From: Lentzea sp. NEAU-D7
Lineage (GTDB): Bacteria; Actinomycetota; Actinomycetes; Mycobacteriales; Pseudonocardiaceae
Assembly (NCBI RefSeq): GCF_026242055.1
Contig: NZ_JAPJDL010000007.1
Coordinates: 62,001-126,000, forward strand
Length of the DNA: 64,000 nt
Direction: 5' to 3'
Of the stretch, positions 836 to 63,618 are shown one piece after another (position 1 is the first letter of the stretch; every line of letters begins with the position of its first letter). The position numbers were made by a program, and so were the translations under genes. The notes beneath the pieces are model-generated. The model searched no databases. It was given only the letters and a program-made list of their open reading frames with translations, and was not told the DNA's origin.

Positions 836-1267
836 TCAGGAAGCCCAGGGAATGGACCGCCCGGGCGGAGAAGACTCCAACCAGGACAAGAACCCGGTCA
901 GGGCGTCCGGCCCCATGGCGATCTCTACCTCGCCGGAGGCGGACCGGCAGCGCAGCACGGTCGCCCCCACGGGCATGGCGTAGGCCTCGGGCCCGGTCGG
1001 CTCCCGCCGGGCGTCGATCTCCAGGCCGTCCCGCGAGATCAGCTCGTTCGGCCCTGACCCGAGCGAGAGCACCCGGAACCAGGCGAACGAGTCGCCCCGG
1101 TAGTGCCCCACGCCCAGGTGCCAGCCACGCCCGCGATCATCGAACTTGCTGCGCAGGGCGACGTGCACGCCACCCTCACGCAGCAGCCGGATGCGGCGCC
1201 AGGCGAAGCAGGTGATGACGATCGCCACCCCAAGAAGGATCAGGCCGGCAATCTCGGTGATCCCCAC
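836..1267 (-). CDS. DUF2550-family single-pass membrane protein
   Basis: A 143-residue protein from the GTG at 1267, with an N-terminal transmembrane helix (about residues 5-25, rich in I/L/V) followed by a basic stretch WRRIRLL and a soluble domain. The frame is open further upstream to 1330, but that would run into the end of atpC; the GTG start leaves a 22-nt gap after atpC. A DUF2550 protein next to atpC is the arrangement seen in mycobacteria. Function is unknown; co-transcription with atpC is likely here. Confidence 0.8.
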   Translation of the reverse strand: MGITEIAGLILLGVAIVITCFAWRRIRLLREGGVHVALRSKFDDRGRGWHLGVGHYRGDSFAWFRVLSLGSGPNELISRDGLEIDARREPTGPEAYAMPVGATVLRCRSASGEVEIAMGPDALTGFLSWLESSPPGRSIPWAS

Positions 1268-1289
1268 GGCTGCGGCCTCGTGCCCGGTC

Positions 1290-6707: not shown

Positions 6708-6723
6708 GCACCCGACCTTGCCA

Positions 6724-8056: not shown

Positions 8057-10400
<2,344 letters not shown>

Positions 10401-19712: not shown

Positions 19713-20461
19713 GGCAGATCGCGCAGCTCTCCCTGCCCGCGTTCGAGGTCCTCTGGGAGGACCTGCGGGCGGGGAGCATCCCGTACCCGTTCGACATCAG
19801 CCAGCACGGCGAGACGCTCGACGAGCGCGCCCGCATCAAGGCCGCCGTGCACGCCGATCTCGAACGCCGGAACCTGGCACGGCGGGGCAGGCCGGAGCCC
19901 GACCTCGAGGACGCGCTGAACCTGTTGGCGCGCCCCGAACTCCGCGTGATCGCGCTCTGCATCCCGGACATGACCCAGCAGAAGCTCGTTCGCGCCAGCG
20001 TGGTGGCGCGCGGCGGCTACGCGGTGCTGGTGGTCCAGGAGGACACGGGCGTCACGCTGAGCCTGGTGCAGCCCAACGAGATCGCCACCTGCCTCGCGAA
20101 CGCCATGCCGCACGGCAGGCCGGGGCCGGGCAAGCTCGTGACGGTGCCGGCCCAGGCCTTCGAAAGCCTTCCGCAGCAACAAGAGGGCTTCCGGCAGTCG
20201 GTCCGCACGGCGGAGAGCGACGAGGTCCGCATCGCCAAGCAGATGCTGACCGGCCCGGCCATCGGCAACGGACACTTCCTGGTGCAGATGGGACAGGGCC
20301 GCACCACCCGCGACTTCCCGCCCGTCACGTGGGTCGACACCAGCCAGGGGCGCTACGCCAACGTCGAGACCCGCAAAGGCTGGTTCACGATCAGCCCCGC
20401 CGACAACATGGGACTGGCACGACACCTCGGACAGGTGCTGGCGATGACGAGCGAGCGATGA
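19709..20461 (+). CDS. espG: EspG-family ESX secretion chaperone
   Basis: A 250-residue protein matching the EspG family in size and layout: N-terminal LSLPAFEVLWEDL, central beta strands (LRVIALCI, YAVLVVQEDTGVTLSLV) and the C-terminal GWFTISPADN(M)GLARHLGQVL. EspG proteins bind PE/PPE-type substrates in the cytosol and hand them to the type VII secretion machinery. It overlaps the upstream substrate gene and the downstream YbaB gene by 4 nt each. No EccB/C/D/E core gene is in the window, so secretion must use a machine encoded elsewhere. Confidence 0.85.
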   Translation: MRQIAQLSLPAFEVLWEDLRAGSIPYPFDISQHGETLDERARIKAAVHADLERRNLARRGRPEPDLEDALNLLARPELRVIALCIPDMTQQKLVRASVVARGGYAVLVVQEDTGVTLSLVQPNEIATCLANAMPHGRPGPGKLVTVPAQAFESLPQQQEGFRQSVRTAESDEVRIAKQMLTGPAIGNGHFLVQMGQGRTTRDFPPVTWVDTSQGRYANVETRKGWFTISPADNMGLARHLGQVLAMTSER

Positions 20462-30348: not shown

Positions 30349-30615
30349 GATCTTGTCCCTTTCAAGGATGGCCGCCGGGTCCCTGTTGGTGAACGGGTGA
30401 ACCGGAGCCGGACTCGACCGTTTAGTTTGCCAGACCGTTCAACACGTGCAAAAACGCGGTTGTTCCCGGGAGTGATCGGTGGCTTAAGTCACAACCGCTT
30501 AACCGCCGCGATACGCCGTTCAGCGCAAGGTGTCGCCGTTCGACCAGATACGGCTCTGTGTTGTTGGTCGGCGTCCATCAGACTGTGTGCCGTGTTCTGC
30601 ACCGCTGAGCGGCCG

Positions 30616-50594: not shown

Positions 50595-50669
50595 GCCCCC
50601 GTAGCTCAGGGGATAGAGCACCGCCCTCCGGAGGCGGGAGCGCAGGTTCGAATCCTGCCGGGGGCACCA
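50595..50669 (+). tRNA. tRNA-Arg(CCG), integration site of the mobile element
   Basis: Cloverleaf read directly: acceptor GCCCCCG/CGGGGGC, D stem GCTC/GAGC, anticodon stem CCGCC/GGCGG with loop CTCCGGA (anticodon CCG), T arm GCAGG-TTCGAAT-CCTGC, discriminator A and encoded CCA. It reads CGG codons for Arg. An integrase gene ends 178 nt downstream, so its 3' half is probably the left attachment site. Confidence 0.95.
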
Positions 50670-50846: not shown

Positions 50847-52244
50847 TCACTTTGCGTCGTCCGAAGCCTCTTTGAGTCCAGCCTCGACGAGTGCGCGGAT
50901 CGCCTCGTTGGAGCCGCTCAGCACGTGGGCGTAGATCCGGAACAGTACCTCCAGGGAATGCCCTGCCCACTCGGCGACCTGCTTCGGCGGCACGCCAGAG
51001 CTGAGCCACAACGAGATGCCGGCATGACGCAAGTCGTAAGGCGTTGCGGCGAGGTCGCTCGCCGCCAGTTCGGCGGGCAATGCCTTCTCGCGCGCCTTGC
51101 GCCACGCCCGCAGGATCGTCAGCTTGGGCAGCTCGTCGTCGTTGCGCTCGCCACGGAACAGGCGGCCGTCCCTCGCGGTGCCGTAAGTCCGCATGTGGCG
51201 GTGCAGCAAGGCGGTCAACTCGGGAGGGCTGGGAACCGGGCGGATCGTGCCCGCATCCCTCTGCTTGAGCATTCGCTCGTCGCGGTTCTTCCCGCTGTCG
51301 GTCCAGTCTTTGCCCGCGTACGGGTGGGCGTCCTCCAGGTGGATCTCACCCCAGCCTTCCTCGGGCAGCGAGAGCTGGCGCTTGGAGAGCGCGACGGCCT
51401 CCTCTGGGCGCATCCCGGCGTAGTAGAGGCAGCCGAAGAACGCCGTCAGGCGAGGGCCGCTGCGCTTCTGCAACCGCACGGCCTCCAGGAGGTCGCGCAT
51501 CTGCGACGGGTTCGCGACTCGGCGCTGATCGACCGCCTGGACCGTCTTCCGCGGCGCGATCCACTTCAGAGCCGGGATGGGGTTGGAGTCGAGGAGCTTG
51601 CGCTCCACGGCGTACTCCATCGCCGTGCCGAGGATCTTGCGCTGACGGGAGACGACGCTCGGTGCCGCTGGCTTGCCGTCGAGCTTGACCGCGAGCCTGT
51701 CCAGCAGGGGGCGCAGCACCTGCGGGTCGCGCAGCGACGCCACGGGCAAGGTGTTCGCCTCAACCCACCTCAGCGTCCGGCGCACCTCCTCAGGCATGTC
51801 GGCCGCGTCCCGGCGATTGGTGTTGAACGCCCAGCGGGTCAGCGCGCTACGGATCAGCGCATCGTCCGGCTTGCCCTTGGTCGAGGACCACATCGCCGGC
51901 GTGGCCCTGGTCAGTGCCTCGGCGTGCGTGCGGCGGGTCGTGGCCGCGACGTGCGGCCACTTCATGTCGACGAACGCGCAGGCGAACTGGTACCAGCTCA
52001 TCTCGTCGGACTGGCGGGCCATCGAGACCGGCAGTCCGTCGAAGGTCCGGAACGCCTCACCCTTGCGGGCTGCGGCGATCAGGTTGGACCGGAACGCCTC
52101 CGCGAGGGCCTTGGTCCCGTATTTGGACTTGAAGCGCTTCTTGGTGACCCGCCAGCGCACCCAGTAGGTGACCTTCTTGCTGCCCTTGTGGGCGTACGGG
52201 TCGAGCGCGAAAACCTGGACGTCGTAACTGGTCTCGTCCGTCAT
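50847..52244 (-). CDS. int: Tyrosine site-specific recombinase (integrase)
   Basis: A 465-residue integrase from the ATG at 52244 (AGGAGGAG ahead). The N-terminal AP2-like arm-binding part is basic (KKVTYWVRWRVTKKRFKSKY), then a core-binding domain and the catalytic domain with Arg in AGMRPEEAVALS, H-x-x-R-type box YDLRHAGISLWLSSG, GHS, and the nucleophile Tyr in FRIYAHVLSG. It directs recombination between the tRNA-Arg attachment site and the element. Its start overlaps the excisionase stop (ATGA), so the two are made together. Confidence 0.93.
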   Translation of the reverse strand: MTDETSYDVQVFALDPYAHKGSKKVTYWVRWRVTKKRFKSKYGTKALAEAFRSNLIAAARKGEAFRTFDGLPVSMARQSDEMSWYQFACAFVDMKWPHVAATTRRTHAEALTRATPAMWSSTKGKPDDALIRSALTRWAFNTNRRDAADMPEEVRRTLRWVEANTLPVASLRDPQVLRPLLDRLAVKLDGKPAAPSVVSRQRKILGTAMEYAVERKLLDSNPIPALKWIAPRKTVQAVDQRRVANPSQMRDLLEAVRLQKRSGPRLTAFFGCLYYAGMRPEEAVALSKRQLSLPEEGWGEIHLEDAHPYAGKDWTDSGKNRDERMLKQRDAGTIRPVPSPPELTALLHRHMRTYGTARDGRLFRGERNDDELPKLTILRAWRKAREKALPAELAASDLAATPYDLRHAGISLWLSSGVPPKQVAEWAGHSLEVLFRIYAHVLSGSNEAIRALVEAGLKEASDDAK

Positions 52245-52423
52245 GGCGACTCCTCCTGTTGTTCGAGCCACCGCTCGTACTCAGTAGCCCGAACCCGCAG
52301 CTCGCCGTTTGGCAGGCGAATGCACTTCGGGCCGCGCTGCTTTGCGCGCCAGTCGTAGAAGGTGGACCGGGCGATCCCGAGATCAGCGCACACGTCGGCG
52401 ACAGTGAGATGACGAGGGGGCAA
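52241..52423 (-). CDS. xis: Excisionase/recombination directionality factor, MerR-like HTH
   Basis: A small helix-turn-helix protein: LTVADVCADLGIARSTFYDW is the DNA-binding unit, followed by RLPNGELRVRATEYERWLEQ, as in AlpA/Xis proteins encoded next to integrases. The start is uncertain. I use the TTG at 52423 (60 residues) because the longer frame up to 52492 runs through a perfect 13-bp hairpin; GGAGAG lies ahead of this TTG. Confidence 0.75.
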   Translation of the reverse strand: MPPRHLTVADVCADLGIARSTFYDWRAKQRGPKCIRLPNGELRVRATEYERWLEQQEESP

Positions 52424-55447: not shown

Positions 55448-55825
55448 TCACTGGCGGGGGCGCTTGGGCGCGTCGAACCTGTCGTCAGTGCCGATGCCCC
55501 GGAGCAGGAAGCTCAGCATCGCCAGGCAGTGCCAGGCGGCGTGCGCCAGGTGCGGCAGGCCGCTTTCGGGGTCCAGCTCCTCGCCAGCCCAGAACGCCAG
55601 CAGGTGGCGCATGCAGGCGTCGAAGCTCAGGCTCCAGGCGTAGCCGCGCAGGTAGTTGTGCTGCGAGTACTTCGCCGCACCGAACCCGGACGCCTCCGCC
55701 AGCACGAGCAGGGCTTTTGGGTCGAGGCTGCCCACCGAAGCCAGCTTCTTGCCCTTCTCCCCGCCAGTCTCCGACACCACGCGAACCTCTTCGCCGCGCT
55801 TGATGATCGGCTCGGGCGGCGCCAT
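55448..55825 (-). CDS. dATP/dGTP diphosphohydrolase-like protein (DUF5664/MazZ-related)
   Basis: A 125-residue phage-type protein. The family pattern is clear: GFGAAKYSQHNYLRGYAWS, then CMRHLLAFWAGEELDPESGL and PHLAHAAWHCLAML. The His, Asp and Glu in these helices match the metal-binding helices of the dATP/dGTP diphosphohydrolase N-terminal domain found in phages, which trims host purine dNTP pools and in some phages serves 2-aminoadenine DNA synthesis. No PurZ is in the window, so the latter cannot be claimed. The start shares one base with the upstream stop (TGATG). Confidence 0.75.
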   Translation of the reverse strand: MAPPEPIIKRGEEVRVVSETGGEKGKKLASVGSLDPKALLVLAEASGFGAAKYSQHNYLRGYAWSLSFDACMRHLLAFWAGEELDPESGLPHLAHAAWHCLAMLSFLLRGIGTDDRFDAPKRPRQ

Positions 55826-56106
55826 CAGGCGGCCCTCAGTTCGCGCAGCTCGATGTATGGCGCCCACTCGGGGTGCCGGTTCACCAACTCCCGCGCGTAG
55901 CGGCTGGTGTAGGCGTCGTTCAGGGCGAACGTGCCCGGCGCGGCAGCCTTGCTGCGCTCCCACCGCATCGTCTCCCAGAGCATCTTCACCCCAAGCTTGC
56001 GCATCCCCGCCGAGAACCACTCGCCGGCGAGACGCTCCAAGGCCTCGAAGACCTCTGGGTTGTCCAGGTGAAACTGCTGGAAGCGCTCCTGGATGGTGTG
56101 CTGCAC
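55825..56106 (-). CDS. Hypothetical element protein
   Basis: A 93-residue helical protein (DNPEVFEALERLAGEWFSAG, then KMLWETMRWERSKAA) from the GTG at 56106, which has GAGGAGGA ahead. It resembles short helical proteins common in actinobacteriophages; function unknown. It is the first gene downstream of ribozyme 1. Confidence 0.7.
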   Translation of the reverse strand: MQHTIQERFQQFHLDNPEVFEALERLAGEWFSAGMRKLGVKMLWETMRWERSKAAAPGTFALNDAYTSRYARELVNRHPEWAPYIELRELRAA

Positions 56107-56120
56107 TCAGTCCTCCTCGT

Positions 56121-56180
56121 GGCAGGCTCATCAGCGCGGGGATGCCAGCCCCACGGACCCGGCTCGCGCCGGGTTTCGCC
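56121..56180 (-). ncRNA. Hammerhead ribozyme 1 (type II)
   Basis: On the minus strand: GGC-GAAA, stem III CCCGGC/GCCGGG with loop GCGA, cleavage triplet ending UC (cut after the base at 56156), stem I CGUGGGG/CCCCGCG with loop CUGGCAU, core CUGAUGA, GCC, tail UGCC. GGC and GCC form stem II. It starts directly after the stop codon of the gene at 56181 and lies 14 nt ahead of the next start. Confidence 0.9.
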
Positions 56181-56624
56181 TTACTTCCTCGCCTCGTTGA
56201 AGTGGCGGACCCAGAAGTTGGTTACCGTCGAGTCGATCACCAGATGCGGCACCTCGACGATGCGCGCGACGAGGTCGCGCACCAACGCTCCGTCCCCCGC
56301 CGCCCGCGCCAAACGCGCGAAGTCCTGATACGCGCGCTCCTTGCGCTCCAGTAGCGGCGCCGCGCGCTTGCGTAGCTCGTCATAGGGCAGCGCCACGACG
56401 TGGCGCACGTGGGCGCTCATCGCCTCGTCGTTCACCAGCCGTAGGCGCCACACCTCCCGCGGTATGGCTGGAATCAGGATGTCGAGCGCGTCAAGGCACC
56501 CGTCGCACCGGTTGCGGTCGTTGCCCGCGTGGTAGATCGAGGACCCCATCGCGTCGATCTCCGGGCAGCCCGGCGTGTAGCACAGGCCGCCGAAGTTACC
56601 CCTCGCCTCACTGGCCTTGGTCAT
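56181..56624 (-). CDS. Hypothetical element protein with Cys pairs
   Basis: A 147-residue protein. N-terminal CYTPGCPE and RCDGCLDALDIL give two Cys pairs (possible zinc site binding both), then a helical C-terminal half rich in Arg (ERKERAYQDFARLARAAG). Its stop codon abuts ribozyme 1. Family not recognised. Confidence 0.7.
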   Translation of the reverse strand: MTKASEARGNFGGLCYTPGCPEIDAMGSSIYHAGNDRNRCDGCLDALDILIPAIPREVWRLRLVNDEAMSAHVRHVVALPYDELRKRAAPLLERKERAYQDFARLARAAGDGALVRDLVARIVEVPHLVIDSTVTNFWVRHFNEARK

Positions 56625-56641
56625 CTTGTCTCCCTCATCTC

Positions 56642-56697
56642 GGCAGGCTCATCAGCACAGGGATGCCAGCCCTGCGGACGCCTCACGGCGTTTCGCC
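56642..56697 (-). ncRNA. Hammerhead ribozyme 2 (type II)
   Basis: GGC-GAAA, stem III CGCC/GGCG (loop GUGA), UC cut after 56677, stem I CGCAGGG/CCCUGUG (one G-U) with loop CUGGCAU, CUGAUGA, GCC, UGCC. Compared with copy 1 the stem I pairs are changed on both sides. Four nt after a stop, 17 nt before a start. Confidence 0.9.
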
Positions 56698-56701
56698 TCG
56701 T

Positions 56702-57064
56702 TCATGCGAGGTGGTGGAGCGAGACGGCGTGGGGCTGCACTCGCCCATCTGCGTAGTGGACAAAGATGTGCGCCCCCTTCAGCTCGTCGTCACCCGCATC
56801 AGGGACCAGTTCTCGCGCCGGGGTGCAGCCGTCCTCAACGATCGGCTCGTCGTAGCCGCCGCTGCCGTCGAAGTCCTCCGCCGGCACCCACCGCTGACCA
56901 CAGCAGTTGTCCTCGTCGTCGAAATCCAGGCCGATCTCACGAGCCCGGCGGTTGGCTTCATCTGCGGAGGCCGCCTCGATCACCACGTGTTTCGTGATCC
57001 CGCGCTCCGGGTCGTACACGAATCGGCCACCCGTGTTGAGCTGGCGGAACTCGTAGAACTGCAT
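56702..57064 (-). CDS. Hypothetical element protein
   Basis: A 120-residue acidic protein from the ATG at 57064, 16 nt past the end of ribozyme 3. VFYEF-like strand start, a helix ADEANRRAREIGLDFDDEDN followed by CCGQRWVPAEDFDG, then a beta-rich end (GAHIFVHYADGRVQPHAVSL). Family not recognised. Confidence 0.7.
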   Translation of the reverse strand: MQFYEFRQLNTGGRFVYDPERGITKHVVIEAASADEANRRAREIGLDFDDEDNCCGQRWVPAEDFDGSGGYDEPIVEDGCTPARELVPDAGDDELKGAHIFVHYADGRVQPHAVSLHHLA

Positions 57065-57080
57065 GGGCACTCCTCCTGCT

Positions 57081-57136
57081 GGCAGGCTCGTCAACGCAGG
57101 GATGCCAGCCCTGCGGACCCCCGTGGGGGTTTCGCC
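57081..57136 (-). ncRNA. Hammerhead ribozyme 3 (type II), altered core
   Basis: GGC-GAAA, stem III CCCC/GGGG (loop CACG), UC at 57116, stem I CGCAGGG/CCCUGCG with loop CUGGCAU, GCC, UGCC. The core reads UUGACGA, not CUGANGA: the essential C3 is U, so cleavage should be weak or lost. Everything else is kept. Confidence 0.75.
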
Positions 57137-57140
57137 TCAA

Positions 57141-57479
57141 TCAGTGCTCGGCGCCGGCCAGTCCCACCTCGACCAGGGACAGAAAGTGCTTGTCCCCTAG
57201 GTGGTAGGTCTCCGTGCGCCAGTCGCTGCGGTACTGCTCTCTCGCGTGCCTCTCGCAAAGCGGGCACAGGGAGCCTCGCTCCACGCGAGTCGCGACCCCG
57301 TCGCAGTAGTCGCAAATGGGCCGAACTCCCAGGACCTCCGCCCGCGCGGTGTGACCCCAGGACCCCGTGATCAGTCGGGCCAGCAGTTCGGCCTGGTCTG
57401 CGTCGTAGGCCAGCGGATAGACCGTCGTGCGGTCTTGCTCGTCTCGCAGCCTGACGGCGAACTCCCGCAACTCGCTCAT
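57141..57479 (-). CDS. Small zinc-finger-like protein
   Basis: A 112-residue protein from the ATG at 57479 behind GAGGGAG (a GTG at 57488 in frame is possible). PICDYCDGVATRV and SLCPLCERHAREQ make a C-x2-C ... C-x2-C pair. The N-terminal half is a YPLAYDADQAELLARLI alpha/beta part. Function unknown. Confidence 0.7.
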   Translation of the reverse strand: MSELREFAVRLRDEQDRTTVYPLAYDADQAELLARLITGSWGHTARAEVLGVRPICDYCDGVATRVERGSLCPLCERHAREQYRSDWRTETYHLGDKHFLSLVEVGLAGAEH

Positions 57480-57499
57480 CGTCCACACTCCCTCTGTTC

Positions 57500-57560
57500 G
57501 GCAGGCTCGTCAGCGCGGGGATGCCAGCCCCACGGACCGTCCGCAATGGACGGTTTCGCC
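57500..57560 (-). ncRNA. Hammerhead ribozyme 4 (type II)
   Basis: GGC-GAAA, stem III CCGUCC/GGACGG (loop AUUGC), UC cut after 57535, stem I CGUGGGG/CCCCGCG, loop CUGGCAU, core CUGACGA (U7 to C, a tolerated position), GCC, UGCC. It starts 3 nt after the stop of the 12-codon ORF at 57564. Confidence 0.9.
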
Positions 57561-57563
57561 CTG

Positions 57564-57602
57564 TCATAACGGGTGCCACTGGTACTGCCTGATCGGCGGC
57601 AT
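57564..57602 (-). CDS. Micro-ORF, 12 residues (MPPIRQYQWHPL)
   Basis: Start is preceded by GAGAGGAGAGGGACACC, a near-ideal ribosome-binding site, and the stop is 3 nt from ribozyme 4, the same spacing as for full genes. A second ORF of the same length and similar start (MLPIRQEQYFHR) lies at 57817. Product role unknown; a short peptide or translation-coupling leader. Confidence 0.5.
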   Translation of the reverse strand: MPPIRQYQWHPL

Positions 57603-57620
57603 GGTGTCCCTCTCCTCTCG

Positions 57621-57791
57621 TCAGCCGGCGAGCTGGTCCGCGGGGCCGCAGAACCTGTTGCCCATTACTTGGCAGATCCAGCCGGGGTCGTCCTCCTGGA
57701 GCTCTCTGAGAGGCACGACCGGCAGGTTCGTCATCGTCAGCCCCGTCACCAGGACGAGGGCCAACACCTTGCGCAGCAGTCGAATCGACAT
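57621..57791 (-). CDS. Small secreted or membrane peptide
   Basis: A 56-residue protein: MSIRLLRKVLALVLVTGLTM is a basic start plus one hydrophobic helix that can act as signal or anchor. The remainder contains two Cys (WICQVMGNRFCGPADQLAG) that could pair outside the cell. It is flanked by two 12-codon ORFs. Too short for family assignment. Confidence 0.6.
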   Translation of the reverse strand: MSIRLLRKVLALVLVTGLTMTNLPVVPLRELQEDDPGWICQVMGNRFCGPADQLAG

Positions 57792-57816
57792 GGCCGCATT
57801 CCCTTCGTTGCTTGAG

Positions 57817-57855
57817 CTATCTGTGGAAGTACTGCTCCTGGCGAATCGGCAACAT
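57817..57855 (-). CDS. Micro-ORF, 12 residues (MLPIRQEQYFHR)
   Basis: Its ATG shares a base with the TGA of the upstream gene (TGATG), and GAGGTGAGG lies ahead. Same length as, and similar to, the micro-ORF at 57564 (PIRQ-x-Q shared). The 63-nt gap it occupies is the only gap in this run without a ribozyme. Confidence 0.45.
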   Translation of the reverse strand: MLPIRQEQYFHR

Positions 57856-58439
57856 CAGTGCCTCACCTCGCCGAAGCACGCGACCTGTGCAACCAGGTCA
57901 CCCGAAACGGCGTCCAGGTCCTGAACCTGGATGCCGTCCGCGTCTCTGTCCGCCCACGCCGTACGGAAGTAGTGGGCGGATCGGGCATGGACGAGTTTCT
58001 GCTCGGGATCGGCCAGCATCAGGAAGGCGATGCGGATGTCGCCGTAGGTCAGATGGAAGTCCCGGTCGTTTGCCATGTCGACCACAGTGAACCTGGTCCC
58101 CGACGGGGTTTCCGCTTCGTTCGCCAGGTTCAGCGGGTCCATCCAGTGGTCGGCCCCCTGGCTCATCAACTCCATGATGCAGCGGACGTTCTCGTCCGTG
58201 ATGGCACGGTGATCCTGCGCGGCCACCCACTCGCTGACTGTCCGAACCCGCAGGCGCCAGGCGTCCGCGTAGCTCTCTCGCTCCCATCCGCCCGGATCAC
58301 GAACCGACACCTTGGCGGTGCCGTTGTACTCAGCGCCCCGCGTGACCCGCAGGAAGGTTCCGGGCATCCCGCGGAAGTTCGCGATCGAGTCACCCTCGTT
58401 TATGCGTTCGCCGGCCTCGTTCAACACCAGGTGCGGCAT
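57855..58439 (-). CDS. Hypothetical element protein
   Basis: A 194-residue protein from the ATG at 58439 (AGAGGGGAACGA ahead). The N-terminal 70 residues look like a small beta-barrel (GDSIANFRGMPGTFLRVTRG, SVRDPGGWERESYADAWRLR); the rest is helical and acidic. Family not recognised. Confidence 0.7.
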   Translation of the reverse strand: MPHLVLNEAGERINEGDSIANFRGMPGTFLRVTRGAEYNGTAKVSVRDPGGWERESYADAWRLRVRTVSEWVAAQDHRAITDENVRCIMELMSQGADHWMDPLNLANEAETPSGTRFTVVDMANDRDFHLTYGDIRIAFLMLADPEQKLVHARSAHYFRTAWADRDADGIQVQDLDAVSGDLVAQVACFGEVRH

Positions 58440-58457
58440 TTCGTTCCCCTCTCGCAT

Positions 58458-58518
58458 GGCAGGCTCATCAGCGCAGGGATGCCAGCCCTGCGGACCGTCC
58501 GCCTTGGACGGTTTCGCC
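58458..58518 (-). ncRNA. Hammerhead ribozyme 5 (type II)
   Basis: GGC-GAAA, stem III CCGUCC/GGACGG (loop AAGGC), UC cut after 58493, stem I CGCAGGG/CCCUGCG with loop CUGGCAU, CUGAUGA, GCC, UGCC. It begins at the last base of a UAG stop. Confidence 0.9.
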
Positions 58519-58797
58519 CTAGACGCCCTCGATCACGCGGACGAACTCCTGGGCCGCGCACAGGAACTCCTCGTAGGTTCTCGGGGCTTCGGTCATGAAT
58601 CGCTCGGGTTTTCCGACGCGGATCGTCGACCACTCATCCGTCTCCCTGAGCCGGACGCCGAAGTGCAACCGCTGGTACCCAACGGGGTTGGCGAGTCGGT
58701 TGAGGTTCCGGCCGTCCTGCGATGGCCAGTCGACCGCGAACCAGCGGTCACTACTCGCATTGGTCAGCTCGGGCGGCGTCGACTTGATGTCGTTCAT
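58519..58797 (-). CDS. Hypothetical element protein
   Basis: A 92-residue protein from the ATG at 58797: SSDRWFAVDWPSQDGRNLNR, then strand-rich YQRLHFGVRLRETDEWSTIR and a C-terminal helix TYEEFLCAAQEFVRVIEGV. The longer frame to 58881 runs through ribozyme 6 and is rejected. Function unknown. Confidence 0.65.
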   Translation of the reverse strand: MNDIKSTPPELTNASSDRWFAVDWPSQDGRNLNRLANPVGYQRLHFGVRLRETDEWSTIRVGKPERFMTEAPRTYEEFLCAAQEFVRVIEGV

Positions 58798-58816
58798 GTG
58801 GCGCCTCTCGGCTCTT

Positions 58817-58877
58817 GGCAGGCTCATCAGCGCAGGGATGCCAGCCCCGCGGACCCGGCTGCGAGCCGGGTTTCGCC
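58817..58877 (-). ncRNA. Hammerhead ribozyme 6 (type II)
   Basis: GGC-GAAA, stem III CCCGGCU/AGCCGGG (loop CGC), UC cut after 58852, stem I CGCGGGG/CCCUGCG (one G-U), loop CUGGCAU, CUGAUGA, GCC, UGCC. It starts directly after a UGA stop. Confidence 0.9.
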
Positions 58878-59720
58878 TCATCTCGGATCGGGCTCACGTC
58901 CCTGCGCGGCGTCGAACTCGCGCACCGTTCGCACCGCGACCCTGACGGCCTCGTTGATCACGGAGCCGACGTCCCAGGCCGGGTTCTCGCCCTCCGTGGC
59001 CGCCACGACGCGCTCCAGGCTGGCTGGGCCGGCAACGACCGCATCCCAGACCACGTCGGGCACCTCGTCCTCGTCCTCGTCCCCGTGACCCGACTCGTCC
59101 TTGAGGTTCTCGGGAGGTGTCGGCGTGTCGGAGCTGGCCTCCCAGCGGGCGTCCTCCTCCCGGCGGCTCAGTGCCGCCCGCGCCTCTGCCTCGGCTTCGC
59201 CCTCGTCGAAGAAGCCGCCGACCGCTTCGACTTCCTCCCAGGAGTCCCGGTCCTCGTGGTCCGGGTTGGTCCAGGTCGTTCGCTTCTCGATCACGAAGCG
59301 GACAGCCTCGTTGTTGGCCCAGGAGCGGTACTCGTCCCGCTCATCACGCAGGAGCTGCAAGCCCCCGCTCTCCATCTGCTCGGGGTTGCCGCGCTTGGCA
59401 CCCGTCCAGAAGTCCACGTCGTCGGGCATCACGTACCAGATCGCGAACGCTCCGTCGCTCGGGCGGTCGACCAGAGTGACCGCACCGTGGATCGCCCGTG
59501 CGTAGCGCTCAAAGATCCGCACAGCGAGCGGGCTGGAGTAGCGGTAGGCCAAACGCATCCAGGCGGCGGACAGCGGTCCAAAGTCGTCGTCGATCGGGAG
59601 GTAGTTGCGGCGAAGGAAAGTGATCACGTTCGTCACAGCGGCCCCCGTCGTGCGCGGGTTCTCCGCGTACTCGTCGTGCTCGATGCGGTAGCGGAACTCG
59701 GGAATCAGCGTGCTTGTCAT
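58878..59720 (-). CDS. Hypothetical acidic element protein
   Basis: A 280-residue protein. The N-terminal 160 residues are mixed alpha/beta (TNVITFLRRNYLPIDDDFGP, AIHGAVTLVDRPSDGAFAIW), then a low-complexity acidic linker (ESGHGDEDEDEVPD) and a short helical end. One of the two largest products of the ribozyme-punctuated run. Family not recognised. Confidence 0.7.
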   Translation of the reverse strand: MTSTLIPEFRYRIEHDEYAENPRTTGAAVTNVITFLRRNYLPIDDDFGPLSAAWMRLAYRYSSPLAVRIFERYARAIHGAVTLVDRPSDGAFAIWYVMPDDVDFWTGAKRGNPEQMESGGLQLLRDERDEYRSWANNEAVRFVIEKRTTWTNPDHEDRDSWEEVEAVGGFFDEGEAEAEARAALSRREEDARWEASSDTPTPPENLKDESGHGDEDEDEVPDVVWDAVVAGPASLERVVAATEGENPAWDVGSVINEAVRVAVRTVREFDAAQGREPDPR

Positions 59721-59736
59721 GGGCTCCCCTTCTCAT

Positions 59737-59797
59737 GGCAGGCTCATCAGCACGGGCATGCCAGGCCCGTGGACCGTCGTAAGTGGACGGTTTCGCC
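59737..59797 (-). ncRNA. Hammerhead ribozyme 7 (type II)
   Basis: GGC-GAAA, stem III CCGUC/GACGG (loop CACUUAC), UC cut after 59772, stem I CACGGGC/GCCCGUG (perfect), loop CUGGCAU, CUGAUGA, GCC, UGCC. Stem I differs from copies 1-6 at several positions with both strands changed. Confidence 0.92.
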
Positions 59798-59801
59798 AGA
59801 C

Positions 59802-59990
59802 TCATGGGGTGCGGACGCACACCCGGTACGTGACCCCGTTCGGGGTGGTCGTCTCGTACTGATGGGCGCAGAAGACGCCTTGAACGGTCTCGGGCGAGAT
59901 CCAGGCGACCAGGAAGACCATGCCGACCGCCAGGCCGACCGTGACGATCCAGACGGCCGCGAACACCATCAGGGCATTGCGAGTTTTCAC
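59802..59990 (-). CDS. Small membrane protein
   Basis: A 62-residue protein from the GTG at 59990 (GGAG 6 nt ahead): one helix ALMVFAAVWIVTVGLAVGMV and a short outer part with two Cys (VFCAHQYETTTPNGVTYRVC). Similar in design to the 56-residue protein at 57621. Function unknown. Confidence 0.65.
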   Translation of the reverse strand: MKTRNALMVFAAVWIVTVGLAVGMVFLVAWISPETVQGVFCAHQYETTTPNGVTYRVCVRTP

Positions 59991-60008
59991 TGGTACTCCA
60001 AGGGATTT

Positions 60009-60068
60009 GGCAGGCTCGTCAGCACGGACACGCCAGGTCCGTGGACGGGAGTCCCCTCCCGTTTCGCC
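60009..60068 (-). ncRNA. Hammerhead ribozyme 8 (type II)
   Basis: GGC-GAAA, stem III CGGGAG/CUCCCG (loop GGGA), UC cut after 60044, stem I CACGGAC/GUCCGUG, loop CUGGCGU, core CUGACGA, GCC, UGCC. Loop base A to G still pairs with the tail U as G-U. It is the furthest from its upstream stop (16 nt). Confidence 0.9.
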
Positions 60069-60084
60069 AGTGCCGGCCAGGTGC

Positions 60085-60654
60085 TCAGAGTTGACCGATC
60101 GCCTGCGCCAGCAGGATTGCCCGCTCAGGAGTCGTCTCGACCGTGAAGCAGACGCGCTCGTATCGGGCGTCCACCTCAACGCGCATCTCCTCGTCGTTCC
60201 CGCCGAGCCGCACTGAGTTGTCTTGCTTCTGTACGTAGGCTCGGTCGCCTAGCGCAGACCGGATGCTTTCGGCCCGGCGAACAATCGCCGCCTCTTCCTC
60301 GTCGTGAGCCCGCTTCCGCGCCAGCGTCTCCCCGAGCACCGGGAGCGCCCTGGGAAGCAGTTGGCGCTTGATGTCGCCCGCGATCTCCTCAGGCGTCTTG
60401 CGCACCGAGGCCTGGATTTCCACGATCATGCCGGGCGGTCGGAAGCGGTACAGCCCCCTCACGGAGAGCCCGATCTGGAAGTGGGTCACGCTGGCGTAAT
60501 GGTTGAACCTGAAGTGAAATTCGAGGCCATCCGGACCCGTCAGGAAGGCGTTCTGCTTGTTCTCCCACTGTCCGGGAGAGGCACTCCAGCCGTCGCCCAG
60601 CTCAGTCGCGATTTCCTTCGCGATTGAGAGCACGTCGAACTGCGGCTCGGTCAT
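60085..60654 (-). CDS. Hypothetical element protein
   Basis: A 189-residue protein from the ATG at 60654 behind AGGAGGAG. Beta-strands in the first half (LEFHFRFNHYASVTHFQIGL), a central charged helix (ETLARKRAHDEEEAAIVRRA), and strands at the end. Family not recognised. Confidence 0.7.
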   Translation of the reverse strand: MTEPQFDVLSIAKEIATELGDGWSASPGQWENKQNAFLTGPDGLEFHFRFNHYASVTHFQIGLSVRGLYRFRPPGMIVEIQASVRKTPEEIAGDIKRQLLPRALPVLGETLARKRAHDEEEAAIVRRAESIRSALGDRAYVQKQDNSVRLGGNDEEMRVEVDARYERVCFTVETTPERAILLAQAIGQL

Positions 60655-60676
60655 CAAGACCACTCCTCCTATTGAT

Positions 60677-60736
60677 GGCAGGCTCGTCAGCACGGACATG
60701 CCAGGTCCGCGGACGGGAGTTGGCTCCCGTTTCGCC
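60677..60736 (-). ncRNA. Hammerhead ribozyme 9 (type II)
   Basis: GGC-GAAA, stem III CGGGAG/CUCCCG (loop CCAA), UC cut after 60712, stem I CGCGGAC/GUCCGUG (one G-U), loop CUGGCAU, core CUGACGA, GCC, UGCC. Confidence 0.9.
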
Positions 60737-60740
60737 GTGG

Positions 60741-61307
60741 TCAGTGCGAGAAGATGAAGACGCCACCGTCCGGTGCGTCGAGCGCGTCGTAGTCGCTCAT
60801 GAAGAACTCGCGGGCAGCCGCATCCCAGTCGATGCAGCTATACGGAAACTGCGAGGTGTCGACTCCGTCGCACTCCTCGATCCAGTCCCGGACGTAGTCC
60901 TCCGCGCTGTCAGCTCTCCCCTGGTAGGAGTCCTGGAACTGCTTCAGGTGGTCGGAGTCGGCCGACAGGTGCTGGTTGGCGAGCCACGCGCCGAAGGCGT
61001 CGCGCTCGTCGTCGCCGAGGTCTTCGACCAGCTGCCAGACCTCGGCCGCCTGACCGGGCGAGCACTCACCCTTGATCAGGTCGCCGAACCCTTCCGAGTC
61101 GTAGCACCACAGTTCCTCGTGGGCCTCGACGATGTGGTAGGCCTGGGCCTTGCCGTTCGGCCAGTTTCTCGCGCTGTCGATCAGGCTGGTCCACTGGTCC
61201 ATTTCGGCGTAGGTGTCCGCCTCGTCCGCATCCACCCATTCGCCGACCAAGAATCCGCCGTTGTAGCAGCCAATGCAGCCGATCCAGACGCGCGGCATCT
61301 CGTTCAT
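60741..61307 (-). CDS. ardA: ArdA-family antirestriction protein
   Basis: A 188-residue protein with the ArdA layout: N-terminal PRVWIGCIGCYNGGFLVGEW, the acidic middle helices, FQDSYQGRADSAEDYVRDWI and the C-terminal DWDAAAREFFMSDYDALD plus GGVFIF. ArdA is an acidic DNA mimic that blocks type I restriction enzymes when mobile DNA enters a new host. Here it is one unit of the ribozyme-separated transcript. Start is the ATG at 61307 behind GGGGA. Confidence 0.85.
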   Translation of the reverse strand: MNEMPRVWIGCIGCYNGGFLVGEWVDADEADTYAEMDQWTSLIDSARNWPNGKAQAYHIVEAHEELWCYDSEGFGDLIKGECSPGQAAEVWQLVEDLGDDERDAFGAWLANQHLSADSDHLKQFQDSYQGRADSAEDYVRDWIEECDGVDTSQFPYSCIDWDAAAREFFMSDYDALDAPDGGVFIFSH

Positions 61308-61325
61308 TGATTCCCCTTGGTTTTG

Positions 61326-61386
61326 GGCAGGCTCATCAGCACGGGCATGCCAATCCCGTGGACCGTCCAGTCAGGACGGTTTCGCC
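61326..61386 (-). ncRNA. Hammerhead ribozyme 10 (type II)
   Basis: GGC-GAAA, stem III CCGUCC/GGACGG (loop UGACU), UC cut after 61361, stem I CACGGGA/GCCCGUG (six pairs, the loop-closing pair lost), loop UUGGCAU, CUGAUGA, GCC, UGCC. Two nt after a stop. Confidence 0.88.
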
Positions 61387-61388
61387 AG

Positions 61389-61979
61389 TCAGGCCACGTA
61401 CAGCGCGGCGTACTCGCGGCGCCAGTGGACCCACGTGGTCGCCTGCACAGCAGCGGGCGACAGGTCGGTGCCGAACTCCCGCGACAGGATTCGGGCCGCG
61501 CGGCGGTAGACGTCGCACACCTCGTCGTAGGCCCCAGCGCGACTCAGGAGCACGCCACGCACCTTGTCGCCGAGCACGCGGCCTGCCGCGATATCGATCG
61601 CGTGCCGGTCGATCACGACCGCGCGGGGGTCGGACGGGTCCGCGATGGTGCGCCAGAAGGCGCGCACCTTGGGTCCGCTCACGACGTCCTCGGGGTTCTC
61701 TCCCGCGAGGATTCGTCTCGCCTTCTCCGCGTTGAGGCCCAAGGTCTTGATGGGACGTCCGGCGTAGGCGTTCTGCGCCTCGATCACGTTGCGCCGCCAC
61801 GAGAGTTGCGGGGACAACACCGCGATCACGGCCGCCGCCCGCGCGGGGTCCTCTGGGTCCAGGCTTTCGGCGATCTCTCGTGCGGTTGCGTACCAGCCGC
61901 GCCCTTCCACCCGGTCATCCGTGGTGGCAGCGCGGTAAATCCGGGTGATGTTGCGGACGGACACCTTCACGTCGGGCAT
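61389..61979 (-). CDS. Element protein with helix-hairpin-helix-like fold, function unknown
   Basis: A 196-residue helical protein. The run VIAVLSPQLSWRRNVIEAQN, then LNAEKARRILAGENPEDVVS and VVIDRHAIDIAAGR recalls HhH-type DNA glycosylase helices (a hairpin followed by a conserved Asp), and similar proteins occur in actinobacteriophages. Without a lysine or known catalytic set I do not claim glycosylase activity. The 82-nt gap upstream (to ribozyme 11) is unusually long. Confidence 0.65.
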   Translation of the reverse strand: MPDVKVSVRNITRIYRAATTDDRVEGRGWYATAREIAESLDPEDPARAAAVIAVLSPQLSWRRNVIEAQNAYAGRPIKTLGLNAEKARRILAGENPEDVVSGPKVRAFWRTIADPSDPRAVVIDRHAIDIAAGRVLGDKVRGVLLSRAGAYDEVCDVYRRAARILSREFGTDLSPAAVQATTWVHWRREYAALYVA

Positions 61980-62061
61980 GGATGTTCCTTGGCTGTGCGC
62001 GGGGAAGGGGGTGGTGCGATGCCTGGCGCGCTCGGGTAGACCGGCGACAACTCAGGTCGTG

Positions 62062-62122
62062 GGCAGGCTCATCAGCACGGGCATGCCAAGCCCGTGGACC
62101 GTCCGGATAGGACGGTTTCGCC
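62062..62122 (-). ncRNA. Hammerhead ribozyme 11 (type II)
   Basis: GGC-GAAA, stem III CCGUCC/GGACGG (loop UAUCC), UC cut after 62097, stem I CACGGGC/GCCCGUG, loop UUGGCAU, CUGAUGA, GCC, UGCC. It is 82 nt from the next start, the only copy with a long 3' spacer. Confidence 0.92.
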
Positions 62123-62124
62123 GG

Positions 62125-62349
62125 TCAGCTCCAGTTCGTCCACCACGACAGGACCTCGCTTGGGTCCGTCTCGTAGTTCTCTCTGATGGCCGAATCCAGG
62201 TCCGTTTCCGGGTCATCCAGTACGGACATGACGGTGTTCACGACCAGGTTCAGGAGGTCGTCGTCCCGGTCCCCCAGTTCGAGAGCGGTCCGCACGAGGT
62301 CCGACCCGTTGTTCACGGCAGCGAGGACCTGGTCCCGCGTGTAGGCCAT
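62125..62349 (-). CDS. Short hypothetical element protein
   Basis: A 74-residue acidic helical protein (MAYTRDQVLAAVNNGSDLVR; VLDDPETDLDSAIRENYETD). Similar short DNA-mimic-like acidic proteins occur on mobile elements, but no family is recognised. Confidence 0.65.
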   Translation of the reverse strand: MAYTRDQVLAAVNNGSDLVRTALELGDRDDDLLNLVVNTVMSVLDDPETDLDSAIRENYETDPSEVLSWWTNWS

Positions 62350-62373
62350 TCGTTCACCAATCCCTTGCTATGC

Positions 62374-62429
62374 GGCAGGCTCATCAGCACGGGCATGCCA
62401 GTCCCGTGGACCCCTCGCGGGGTTTCGCC
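62374..62429 (-). ncRNA. Hammerhead ribozyme 12 (type II)
   Basis: GGC-GAAA, stem III CCCC/GGGG (loop GCGA), UC cut after 62409, stem I CACGGGA/GCCCGUG (six pairs), loop CUGGCAU, CUGAUGA, GCC, UGCC. First ribozyme in transcription order within the window. Confidence 0.9.
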
Positions 62430-62435
62430 GGTTGG

Positions 62436-63194
62436 TCAGACAGACAGGGGCAGGGCAGGCTGCGCAGGGTCGTAGACCCACTTCCGCCACGCGGCCAGCA
62501 CGGTGCCCTGGATGTGCTCGGTGATCTCGCGGAAGCTGGTGTTCGTGATGGACGTCGCGCTCTGGAACTCCCAGTAGGCGGGGATGTAGCCGTAGAACAT
62601 CTCGCGCAGTTCATCGTCGGAGACGCCGAAGTCCTCCCAGCCGTCCCCGCCAGCCCACTTGTCCAGCTCGCCGATCAGGTCGCTACGCAGCCACTCGTCC
62701 CACGCGGCCTCGCGCAGCTCCTGCTCGTACTCGTAGAGCTTGTCGTGGTCCAAGACCGGGTAGTCCGCGATCCTGTCGACGCACTCGACGATGTGTGCCA
62801 GCCACTCCAGGCACGTGTCGATGTCCTCGCCCAGGTCGCCCGGCAGTTCGCCGAGCTGCACCTGTGCGTACCCCTCGCCCCCGCGCCCCTCAGTCTTGGT
62901 CTCCACGCCGGGGGTGCCTTCCAGGGCAAGCACGTTCGCCGCGTCGAATTCGCTTCCGTGGTGGTCGCTGTAGCTGACCAGGGTCACGGTCACGGCCTCG
63001 TAGTCGAACGTTTCCGCGCCGTCGCTCATGATGAGCTGGTGCAGGTGGTCAGGCTCGATCTTCTCGATGCCTCTCCCCCACGTGTCCCCGCTCAGGCGGA
63101 TCACGTGGGAGTCCAGCAGATTCCCCCACAACTCCACGGCGCGCTCGTACTGCGCCGGGGTGTACGTGCGGTAAAAGCGCATGATCGTGCTCAT
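62436..63194 (-). CDS. Hypothetical acidic element protein
   Basis: A 252-residue acidic protein from the ATG at 63194. N-terminal MRFYRTYTPAQYERAVELWG, central VTLVSYSDHHGSEFDAANVL, then acidic helices (ELREAAWDEWLRSDLIGELD). Its Asp/Glu content and lack of catalytic motifs would suit a DNA- or RNA-mimic, but this is a guess. Family not recognised. Confidence 0.7.
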   Translation of the reverse strand: MSTIMRFYRTYTPAQYERAVELWGNLLDSHVIRLSGDTWGRGIEKIEPDHLHQLIMSDGAETFDYEAVTVTLVSYSDHHGSEFDAANVLALEGTPGVETKTEGRGGEGYAQVQLGELPGDLGEDIDTCLEWLAHIVECVDRIADYPVLDHDKLYEYEQELREAAWDEWLRSDLIGELDKWAGGDGWEDFGVSDDELREMFYGYIPAYWEFQSATSITNTSFREITEHIQGTVLAAWRKWVYDPAQPALPLSV

Positions 63195-63215
63195 GTTCAA
63201 GGCTCCTGATTTCGT

Positions 63216-63280
63216 CGATTGATGACCTGAGCCAGGGGCCGTACGGAAGCCGCACGCACCCCTCGACCGGACATCAATCG
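63216..63280 (-). ncRNA. Structured three-stem element in place of a ribozyme
   Basis: Arms 63216-63224 and 63272-63280 (CGATTGATG with its complement) form a 9-bp outer stem; inside, AGGGG/CCCCU and a 7-bp hairpin (CGUGCGG/CCGUACG, loop CUU) are separated by two internal loops. It sits in the gap where other genes have a hammerhead, but lacks the GAAA and CUGANGA core. It could be another self-cleaving class or a terminator; the upstream stop codon lies in its outer stem. Confidence 0.5.
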
Positions 63281-63543
63281 GCGTTTCTGGCCGCCAGTTC
63301 TCGCTCCGCGATTTCGCGGGTCCACTCGAAGTGTTCGTCCTCGTCCTCTTCCGAGGAGGACTCCCCGTGCTCGGAAAGCCAGGTGATCGCCTGTTCCCTC
63401 CAGCCCAGGAGCCAGAGAACATCAGCCAGCACGTCCACCTCACTGCACGCGAGGGATTCCGACACGTGGGAAGCGAGCATTCCGTCCGCCCACTTGTCGC
63501 CGAACGTTGCGACGGCGGCAAGAAGGGCCTCAGTACCGGGCAT
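63274..63543 (-). CDS. Hypothetical element protein
   Basis: An 89-residue protein from the ATG at 63543 (GGGAG 7 nt ahead), predominantly helical (ALLAAVATFGDKWADGMLAS; VLADVLWLLGWREQAITWLS) with an acidic end (EHGESSSEEDEDEHFEWTRE). It is the first clear gene of the minus-strand run in this window. The frame is open to 63660 but that part crosses an operator-like site. Confidence 0.65.
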   Translation of the reverse strand: MPGTEALLAAVATFGDKWADGMLASHVSESLACSEVDVLADVLWLLGWREQAITWLSEHGESSSEEDEDEHFEWTREIAERELAARNAD

Positions 63544-63567
63544 TGTTGTCTCCCATTGTTCAAACCA

Positions 63568-63618
63568 CTCAGGTTGCCCAATCGGGCAAGAGAAGGCACA
63601 CTTCACCCCTGTGAAGTG
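63568..63618. promoter_or_regulatory. Operator-like site (copy C) and palindrome upstream of the run
   Basis: CTCAGGTTGCCCAATCGG begins at 63568, the third copy of the site seen at 54915 and 55386. CACTTCAC/GTGAAGTG (63599-63618) is a separate 8-bp palindrome with loop CCCT. Both lie just ahead of the first gene of the run, where its promoter or an operator would be. Confidence 0.5.

Follow-up and report, generated by a model that had tools for sequence, protein, structure and literature searches.

Twelve type II hammerhead ribozymes at the gene junctions of a Lentzea prophage, with related arrays in other actinophages

The DNA analyzed here, referred to as the window, is a stretch of 64,000 nucleotides (nt) from Lentzea sp. 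NEAU-D7 (contig NZ_JAPJDL010000007.1, positions 62,001 to 126,000). On its minus strand, between 56118 and 62429, a leftward run of small prophage genes is interspersed with twelve type II hammerhead ribozymes (HH1 to HH12). The order of motifs is the same in all 12 copies: GGC-GAAA, a stem III hairpin, UC, a stem I hairpin, CUGANGA and GCC. In hammerhead numbering the core consists of C3 U4 G5 A6 N7 G8 A9, G12 A13 A14, the pair A15.1-U16.1 and H17. The position given as C17 below is the computed, predicted last base of the upstream cleavage product. Scores are those of the Rfam family RF02276 (Hammerhead_II), in three cases also those of R1, a covariance model built from the window's 12 copies; "sub-gathering" means below the Rfam gathering score of 37 bits.

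HH1, 62371..62429, minus strand: C17 at 62409; Rfam 28.6 bits (sub-gathering), R1 74.3 bits
HH2, 62059..62122, minus strand: C17 at 62097; Rfam 43.4 bits
HH3, 61323..61386, minus strand: C17 at 61361; directly upstream of ardA; Rfam 44.7 bits
HH4, 60674..60736, minus strand: C17 at 60712; Rfam 30.6 bits (sub-gathering), R1 80.5 bits
HH5, 60006..60068, minus strand: C17 at 60044; Rfam 35.9 bits (sub-gathering), R1 80.2 bits
HH6, 59734..59797, minus strand: C17 at 59772; Rfam 42.4 bits
HH7, 58814..58877, minus strand: C17 at 58852; Rfam 45.8 bits
HH8, 58455..58518, minus strand: C17 at 58493; Rfam 43.4 bits
HH9, 57497..57560, minus strand: C17 at 57535; Rfam 43.8 bits
HH10, 57078..57136, minus strand: C17 at 57116; core change C3U (UUGACGA); Rfam 33.5 bits (sub-gathering)
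HH11, 56639..56697, minus strand: C17 at 56677; Rfam 37.2 bits
HH12, 56118..56180, minus strand: C17 at 56156; Rfam 41.7 bits

A preliminary description of this DNA had postulated a minus-strand array of twelve type II hammerheads with a core fixed in 11 of them. We find the same array and the same count, HH10 being the copy with the deviating core, and the type II identity is borne out by the Rfam match together with the covariation and the pseudoknot described below. In the scan with the Rfam model, which the preliminary description had asked for, eight of the twelve copies reach the gathering score (range 37.2-45.8 bits); the other four score 35.9, 33.5, 30.6 and 28.6 bits, and their expectation values (E), for 13.6 kb of searched sequence, lie between 0.00028 and 0.023. 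When R1 was run against the 9.3 Mb genome with E <= 0.001 it returned the window's 12 copies and nothing more; a match at 20372-20460 on the opposite strand (18.1 bits, E 0.036) is at chance level.

Arrays of this kind are not confined to the present strain. R1 matches 7 of 390 genomes of the family, and large arrays are present in 4: the 12 copies of the window, 17 copies in Saccharothrix sp. ALI-22-I (genome G173), 14 in genome G176 and 13 in genome G044. Only 1 of 24 genomes of the genus matches. In a sample of 394 genomes of the class, scanned with strict filters and with 13 candidates scored per genome, 5 match a second model, R2, the present genome included, with at most 3 copies elsewhere; a strict-pattern scan of the genome collection found Saccharothrix sp. 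ALI-22-I as the sole strain. The other three large arrays sit in the same kind of prophage, with capsid, portal, terminase, protease and integrase 70-94% identical to those of the window's prophage; the tape measure protein is equally similar (70-94%) in the two sister prophages whose DNA extends that far.

Streptomyces phages carry them too. Eight regions of 11.6-15.1 kb were analyzed and seven have arrays: Amethyst (8 copies), R4 (9), Celia (11), Spernnie (10), Thestral (11), Hank144 (9) and Diane (9), in all 67 copies. This should not be read as a rate, because the seven were chosen for ribozymes found by blastn; the eighth, Hydra, was included through a shared gene. The Rfam model by itself gives 56 matches above gathering in the seven phages. 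The R4-like array phages belong to the subfamily Arquatrovirinae, and the record of R4 names Streptomyces coelicolor A3(2) as host. A pattern scan of viral contigs gave at least 120 stretches, of which 13 of these 120, duplicates included, hold at least three copies. Three annotated R4 genes, gp60.1, gp67.1 and gp75.1 (locus L164, 5763-5846, 8126-8218 and 11074-11175), each coincide with a hammerhead and probably do not represent genes. Hydra (L124) has gaps of about 80-120 nt between many of its early genes, as its relatives do.

That stems I and III change on both strands together had been noted earlier, and strong covariation is indeed present in both. The window's 12 copies contain 35 alignment cells with a double change compared with 11.9 in shuffled alignments (none of 500 shuffles reached 35). 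These changes fall at 9 of the 22 pairs, all in stems I and III (9 was reached in 8 of 500 shuffles), and 97.3% of the cells are paired in place compared with at most 39.5% when the structure is slid by 1-3 columns. The number of further pair types in these 12 copies was not above that of the shuffles (184 of 500 reached the observed value). Stem II is GGC/GCC in 12 of 12. The alignment of the four prophage arrays (57 rows, 56 of them distinct, including one chance row and one incomplete row) shows 97.0% of cells paired and 192 double changes, against 53.9 after shuffling and at most 47 after sliding; 11 pairs show a double change, slightly above the shuffles (69 of 500 reach this number). Stem II is nearly constant across these arrays, and its rare changes retain a standard pair. 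Chance, or one repeat family, can be ruled out as the source of the copies because the individual stems are kept by compensation.

A feature absent from the preliminary description is a pseudoknot in which loop I (UGGCA) pairs with the tail following stem II (UGCCA). The inner four pairs are possible in 12 of 12 window copies and the fifth in 10. According to the main text of Perreault et al. (2011; PMC3088659) such a loop I/3'-tail pseudoknot is a described feature of type II hammerheads. Taking prophages and phages together, with 117 of 123 copies parsed and 6 omitted, a pseudoknot of at least 4 base pairs (bp) is possible in 83 of 92 distinct loop/tail pairs; the shuffled mean is 65.9 and the maximum 77 in 500. 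This stricter test supersedes one with loosely cut loops, from which 7 of 150 rows had been dropped for lack of the required core motif and which gave 82 of 97 distinct pairs (shuffled mean 66.5, maximum 79 in 300). RNAfold, whose scope does not include pseudoknots, predicts both hairpins in 11 of the 12 window copies. Its z-scores are modest (-0.29 to -2.94) and uninformative, because the catalytic fold rests on the pseudoknot. In 11 of 12 minimum-energy structures the 5' GGC pairs with the distal GCC of the tail and would compete with stem II plus pseudoknot; this modeled pairing is possibly an inactive alternative fold.

Among the prophage copies 52 of 56 have the canonical core CUGANGA, as do 66 of the 67 in phages. 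Of the five departures (four in prophages, one in a phage) four are U4C, a change which reduces activity in vitro yet suffices in a viroid, according to the text of PMC3088659. A U4C core, CCGAYGA, occurs at the same junction in two sister prophages (L158, 9950-10008; L159, 9181-9240), and the third sister has a normal core at that junction (L138, 540-598). A subclass of phage hammerheads has a long stem III hairpin of 27-32 nt; its members are L164:11983-12057, L166:7964-8042, L167:11454-11530, L168:12094-12168, L169:11698-11774 and L123:2200-2278.

The second line of evidence is position. All 12 window copies lie on the sense strand of the genes, and 10 of them start within 7 nt of a predicted stop codon. 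Over the four prophages 41 of 56 copies start that close to a predicted stop. For the ends of the copies, a predicted start lies no more than 25 nt away in 49 of 56; the outliers are due in part to small frames missed by the gene finder. A run resembling a ribosome-binding site (lenient pattern) follows within the next 30 nt in 54 of these 56 copies, compared with 1822 of 4000 stretches taken at random from the arrays. A simple rule of gap length applies in the seven annotated phages: a hammerhead is present in 49 of 57 gaps of at least 50 nt, in 1 of 16 gaps of 20-49 nt and in 0 of 111 gaps shorter than 20 nt. For 50 of the 67 phage copies the overlap with annotated genes does not exceed 12 nt. 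Stop spacing is looser in the isolated phages, where 21 of 67 copies have a stop no more than 7 nt away and the distance to the last annotated stop goes up to 272 nt. Plain terminators can be rejected, because core and pseudoknot are conserved and further genes follow immediately.

The surrounding genes and sites are the following.

50595..50669, plus strand: tRNA-Arg(CCG), probable attachment site, carrying a 51-bp repeat
50847..52271, minus strand: tyrosine integrase of the prophage (phrog_1, E 2.3e-34; PF00589, E 4.3e-7)
55448..55825, minus strand: protein with a dATP/dGTP diphosphohydrolase N-terminal domain (PF18909, E 4.4e-33, searched from 55828)
55825..56106, minus strand: gene K, 93 amino acids, GTG start, the first gene past the last ribozyme
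57564..57855, minus strand: micro-open reading frame (micro-ORF) m1 (12 amino acids, start 57855), a gene of 56 amino acids at 57621-57791, and micro-ORF m2 (12 amino acids, start 57602)
60741..61307, minus strand: ArdA antirestriction protein, 188 amino acids (PF07275, E 9.5e-21)
61389..61979, minus strand: DUF7178 protein, 196 amino acids (PF23802, E 8.7e-50)
62436..63599, minus strand: gene A, first in the run, at most 387 amino acids, start uncertain

The element bearing the array is a siphovirus-type prophage in a tRNA-Arg gene of a soil bacterium. This is concluded from three features: the 51-bp direct repeat, which starts at 50620 inside tRNA-Arg(CCG) and recurs 52.2 kb further, past the edge of the window; the integrase just inside it; and phage structural genes beyond the window (terminase, portal, protease, capsid, tail terminator and tape measure). 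The leftward run of small genes codes for DUF7178, ArdA and DUF7296; most of its proteins match no family. Gene A is 40-55% identical over 253-255 amino acids to array genes in all three sister prophages. At the other end, the ribozymes end where gene overlap begins: K and the diphosphohydrolase gene overlap in TGATG, and this junction has no ribozyme.

The micro-ORFs m1 and m2 are related, 12 amino acids long (MLPIRQEQYFHR, MPPIRQYQWHPL), and flank a gene of 56-84 amino acids; m1 overlaps the stop of the preceding gene. They are found in the window at 57564-57602 and 57817-57855 (minus strand), in L158 at 10029-10067 (plus), in L159 at 10208-10246 (minus) and in L138 at 481-519 and 1235-1273 (minus). 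In L158 and L138 the second micro-ORF stands alone between two hammerheads, and the cassette predicted there measures 128 or 126 nt. In L159 (128-nt cassette) the matching frame starts with GTG, has no stop there and reads into the ribozyme. Some further observations concern the surroundings. A 21-bp piece of the 3' part of the tRNA-Arg is repeated inside the prophage near the start of an endolysin-like gene (L001:2356-2376). The right end of the element holds host-like cargo, a phosphotransferase-family protein (PF01636; L002:12988-13917, minus strand) and a helix-turn-helix (HTH)/DUF5753 protein (L002:15506-16642, plus strand). An ordinary L31-Actinobacteria ribosomal protein leader lies at 30370-30411 on the minus strand (Rfam RF03158, 45.1 bits).

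We consider it probable that the array punctuates the early (cargo) operon of a temperate actinophage and that a long leftward transcript cuts itself. By position, punctuation of a polycistronic mRNA by the hammerheads is well supported. We infer that one transcript spans the run; several hammerheads do flank prophage genes. This transcript would most likely be cut after C17 of every active copy. A middle product would then begin with a 5'-OH and the stem I hairpin, continue with a ribosome-binding site and a gene, and have the stem III hairpin and a 2',3'-cyclic phosphate at its 3' end. Most genes would in this way gain standard 5' and 3' ends, and the messages would be uncoupled from their neighbors, much as by the engineered RiboJ insulator; genes that come and go would thereby be insulated. 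The type II permutation would suit such a seam, each closed hairpin being complete in one half so that only stem II has to fit across. Cleavage in the present array is likely, judged by analogy, because comparable clusters cleave (main text of PMC3088659). We also infer that cleavage in vivo, protection of the ends, insulation and exchange by recombination at the ribozymes take place.

The preliminary description had gone further and proposed single-gene messages. The punctuation is well founded in position (sense strand, at stops, similar in relatives), and most of the predicted products, which measure 272 to 958 nt between successive cuts, agree with single-gene messages. The product between the cuts at 58493 and 57535 does not: it would be 958 nt long and hold four reading frames. 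The last product would run into the downstream genes.

Several points speak against the self-cutting operon. Some junctions have no ribozyme, namely those of the stretch 57564-57855, which has none internally, and 8 of the 57 long gaps in the phages. In the phages 17 of the 67 copies extend more than 12 nt into annotated genes; eight of these 17 are in R4, and three lie inside small annotated frames. The core is altered in HH10, which with C3U is expected from its sequence to be inactive or weak, and in three U4C copies of the sister prophages. The related phage Hydra has no hammerhead detectable with R2 or Rfam despite similar gap lengths. Finally, the claim is built on sequence, and cleavage, transcript and expression are all predicted.

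Other roles for the same elements have to be weighed. Cleavage could be a switch: a ribosome terminating just before the ribozyme would block stem II, and cutting would be limited to messages that are untranslated or finished. The 41 of 56 prophage copies close to a predicted stop fit this idea, but close spacing is not general, because only 21 of 67 copies in the isolated phages lie so near and distances reach 272 nt; we regard the switch as unlikely. The elements could also be mainly protective hairpins or mRNA spacers, with cleavage incidental or absent. In its favor, 11 of the 12 predicted folds show both hairpins and 4 of 56 prophage copies have altered cores. The core letters outside both hairpins are, however, conserved in 52 of 56 prophage and 66 of 67 phage copies, even though the stems differ by compensatory changes, and the pseudoknot, which serves catalysis according to the text of PMC3088659, covaries. 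This makes a mere hairpin quite unlikely.

Very unlikely, in our judgment, is a third possibility, that the excised cassettes are circularized, the half-ribozymes at their ends joining into a complete hybrid hammerhead and the 5'-OH and cyclic-phosphate ends suiting the ligase RtcB. The anatomy of the half-ribozymes does follow from the sequence, the host encodes RtcB (E 4.4e-128), and three prophages have a cassette of 126-128 nt with room for a 12-codon frame only. However, stem II would hold the ends by 3 bp only, and RtcB says little because it is also present in 9 of 14 control genomes; the main text of PMC3088659 states that none were detected when circular or spliced products of clustered hammerheads were sought. 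That the copies are selfish repeats, spreading by self-copying between genes and of little use to the phage, is very improbable indeed: one prophage does have two identical copies (L158:5716-5778 and 6650-6712) and adjacent window copies share a stem I type, but copies are mostly confined to gaps (50 of 67 in phages) and to the sense strand of one gene run, function is kept over wide divergence, and no linked enzyme was seen, target-site repeats not having been searched for.

Returning to the punctuated operon, its evolution can be followed in the four prophages, whose late genes are alike and whose array genes are shuffled, gained and lost. In a seam test we compared all pairs of copies from different prophages and related the identity of each stem to the orthology of the flanking genes. 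Gene labels were assigned from blastp; five (m1, m2, S, T and K) were set by eye from matching ends or starts. The identity of stem III was 0.697 in pairs sharing the upstream gene only (32 pairs) and 0.700 in pairs sharing both genes (17 pairs), compared with 0.514 in pairs sharing the downstream gene only (33 pairs) and 0.497 in pairs sharing neither (1087 pairs). For stem I the values were 0.811 (downstream only), 0.816 (both), 0.783 (upstream only) and 0.744 (neither). Of 1000 permutations, 0 reached the value for stem III with the upstream gene, 399 for stem III with the downstream gene, 0 for stem I with the downstream gene and 54 for stem I with the upstream gene. With the five eye-set labels left out the numbers were, in the same order, 0, 193, 0 and 91 of 500; with four left out, 0 of 500 for stem III upstream and 0 of 500 for stem I downstream (downstream-only pairs). 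The 10 pairs that then share both genes have stem I at chance (158 of 500 permutations reach it).

The same test was applied to the seven phages, using all 67 copies and the existing annotation for orthology, after dropping three R4 frames that lie over ribozymes. Stem III identity was 0.604 in upstream-only pairs compared with 0.525 and 0.508 (permutations: upstream 0 of 1000, downstream 319 of 1000). Since 14 of the 67 phage copies are more than 41 nt from the next counted start, some downstream labels are probably wrong. In the four prophages, column by column, the link to the upstream gene runs from the flank through stem III to the base of stem I, and the link to the downstream gene from stem I into the downstream flank. 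The best switch falls after alignment column 40, two columns beyond C17.

It should be noted what weighs against a split inheritance with its seam at the cut. Stem I of the phages follows both neighbors (upstream-only 0.66, reached by 0 of 1000 permutations; downstream-only 0.63, reached by 12 of 1000; compared with 0.576). With five labels left out, stem I identity in the 7 prophage pairs sharing both genes is 0.723, lower than in unrelated pairs (0.744), and 303 of 500 permutations reach this value. The switch is loosely placed, at columns 35-42 in 310 of 400 subsamples with a tail to 78. The ribozyme moreover fills nearly the whole intergenic space, so that breakpoints sparing the genes would fall inside it anyway.

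On these comparisons the sorting of stem III with the upstream gene appears to stand, since it holds in two data sets; that of stem I with the downstream gene is suggestive and seen in the prophages only. Genes seem to be exchanged inside ribozymes. We tentatively suggest, giving it somewhat less than an even chance, that the segment from ribozyme to ribozyme serves both as the RNA unit that is excised and as the DNA unit that phages exchange, by recombination within the hammerheads near the cut site. It is the switch point that would make the two units the same. Recombination there would rebuild a working hybrid ribozyme, because stem III would be that of the upstream gene, stem I that of the downstream gene, and the two halves are connected by the 3-bp stem II alone. 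An exchange route through RNA copies found no support: reverse transcriptase genes are present at two places in the host (contigs C22 and C24), not on the prophage contig. The two identical hammerheads of L158 stand at different junctions of one prophage, which points to recent copying or gene conversion.

How much of this is new? Neither the ribozyme class nor the pseudoknot nor the processing hypothesis is new. The preliminary description had called the array an undescribed mRNA-processing system, which is incorrect in so far as clustered phage hammerheads have been proposed to cut transcripts into mRNAs of single-gene or operon length (Perreault et al., 2011; PMC3088659, main text). As described there, three clusters were shown to cleave in vitro; cleavage in E. 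coli was demonstrated for one, the cluster flanking ardA. Those clusters share with the present array the type II architecture, the loop I/3'-tail pseudoknot, the location between phage genes, the ardA neighbor and the single-gene-mRNA proposal. The largest cluster numbered in the main text, figures and supplements aside, is a triple; here there are 8-17 copies per gene run. Also beyond what that text describes are the named subfamily (Arquatrovirinae), the four sister prophages and the split inheritance of the stems. Our literature search, mainly of open-access papers, found no earlier report of arrays this large, of the occurrence in R4-like phages, of the junction rule or of the split inheritance, and earlier notice is possible. 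Among the papers it listed, PMC3088659 alone was recognizably concerned with phage hammerheads. The apparent split inheritance of stems I and III, less secure for stem I, would be the new element here.

Three other systems invite comparison. In viroids, satellites and retrozymes a long RNA is cleaved by repeated hammerheads, and each unit released has half a ribozyme at either end. There every unit is a copy of the same RNA and is closed into a circle, whereas the present ones are different mRNAs. We know of no circles from hammerhead arrays of the present kind. Integron gene cassettes are, by analogy, exchangeable single-gene units with a shared element at every seam; unlike integrons, the array has no known linked cassette integrase, and exchange would most simply be homologous recombination. 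The RiboJ insulator, as described in the text of PMC7536230, likewise places a hammerhead before a gene and normalizes the 5' end of the transcript; it differs in being man-made, in its added hairpin and in being used once per transcription unit, not for each gene of an operon.

Because a single gene run can hold as many as 17 copies, their positions obey a sharp rule and the laboratory phage R4 has an array, the purpose of bacterial hammerheads becomes directly testable. If the proposal is true, ribozymes would be standard assembly seams at which these phages gain and lose accessory genes with their expression insulated. The split inheritance suggests a use beyond the cutting of RNA, as standard seams for the modular exchange of genes, something that engineers came near on their own with ribozyme insulators.

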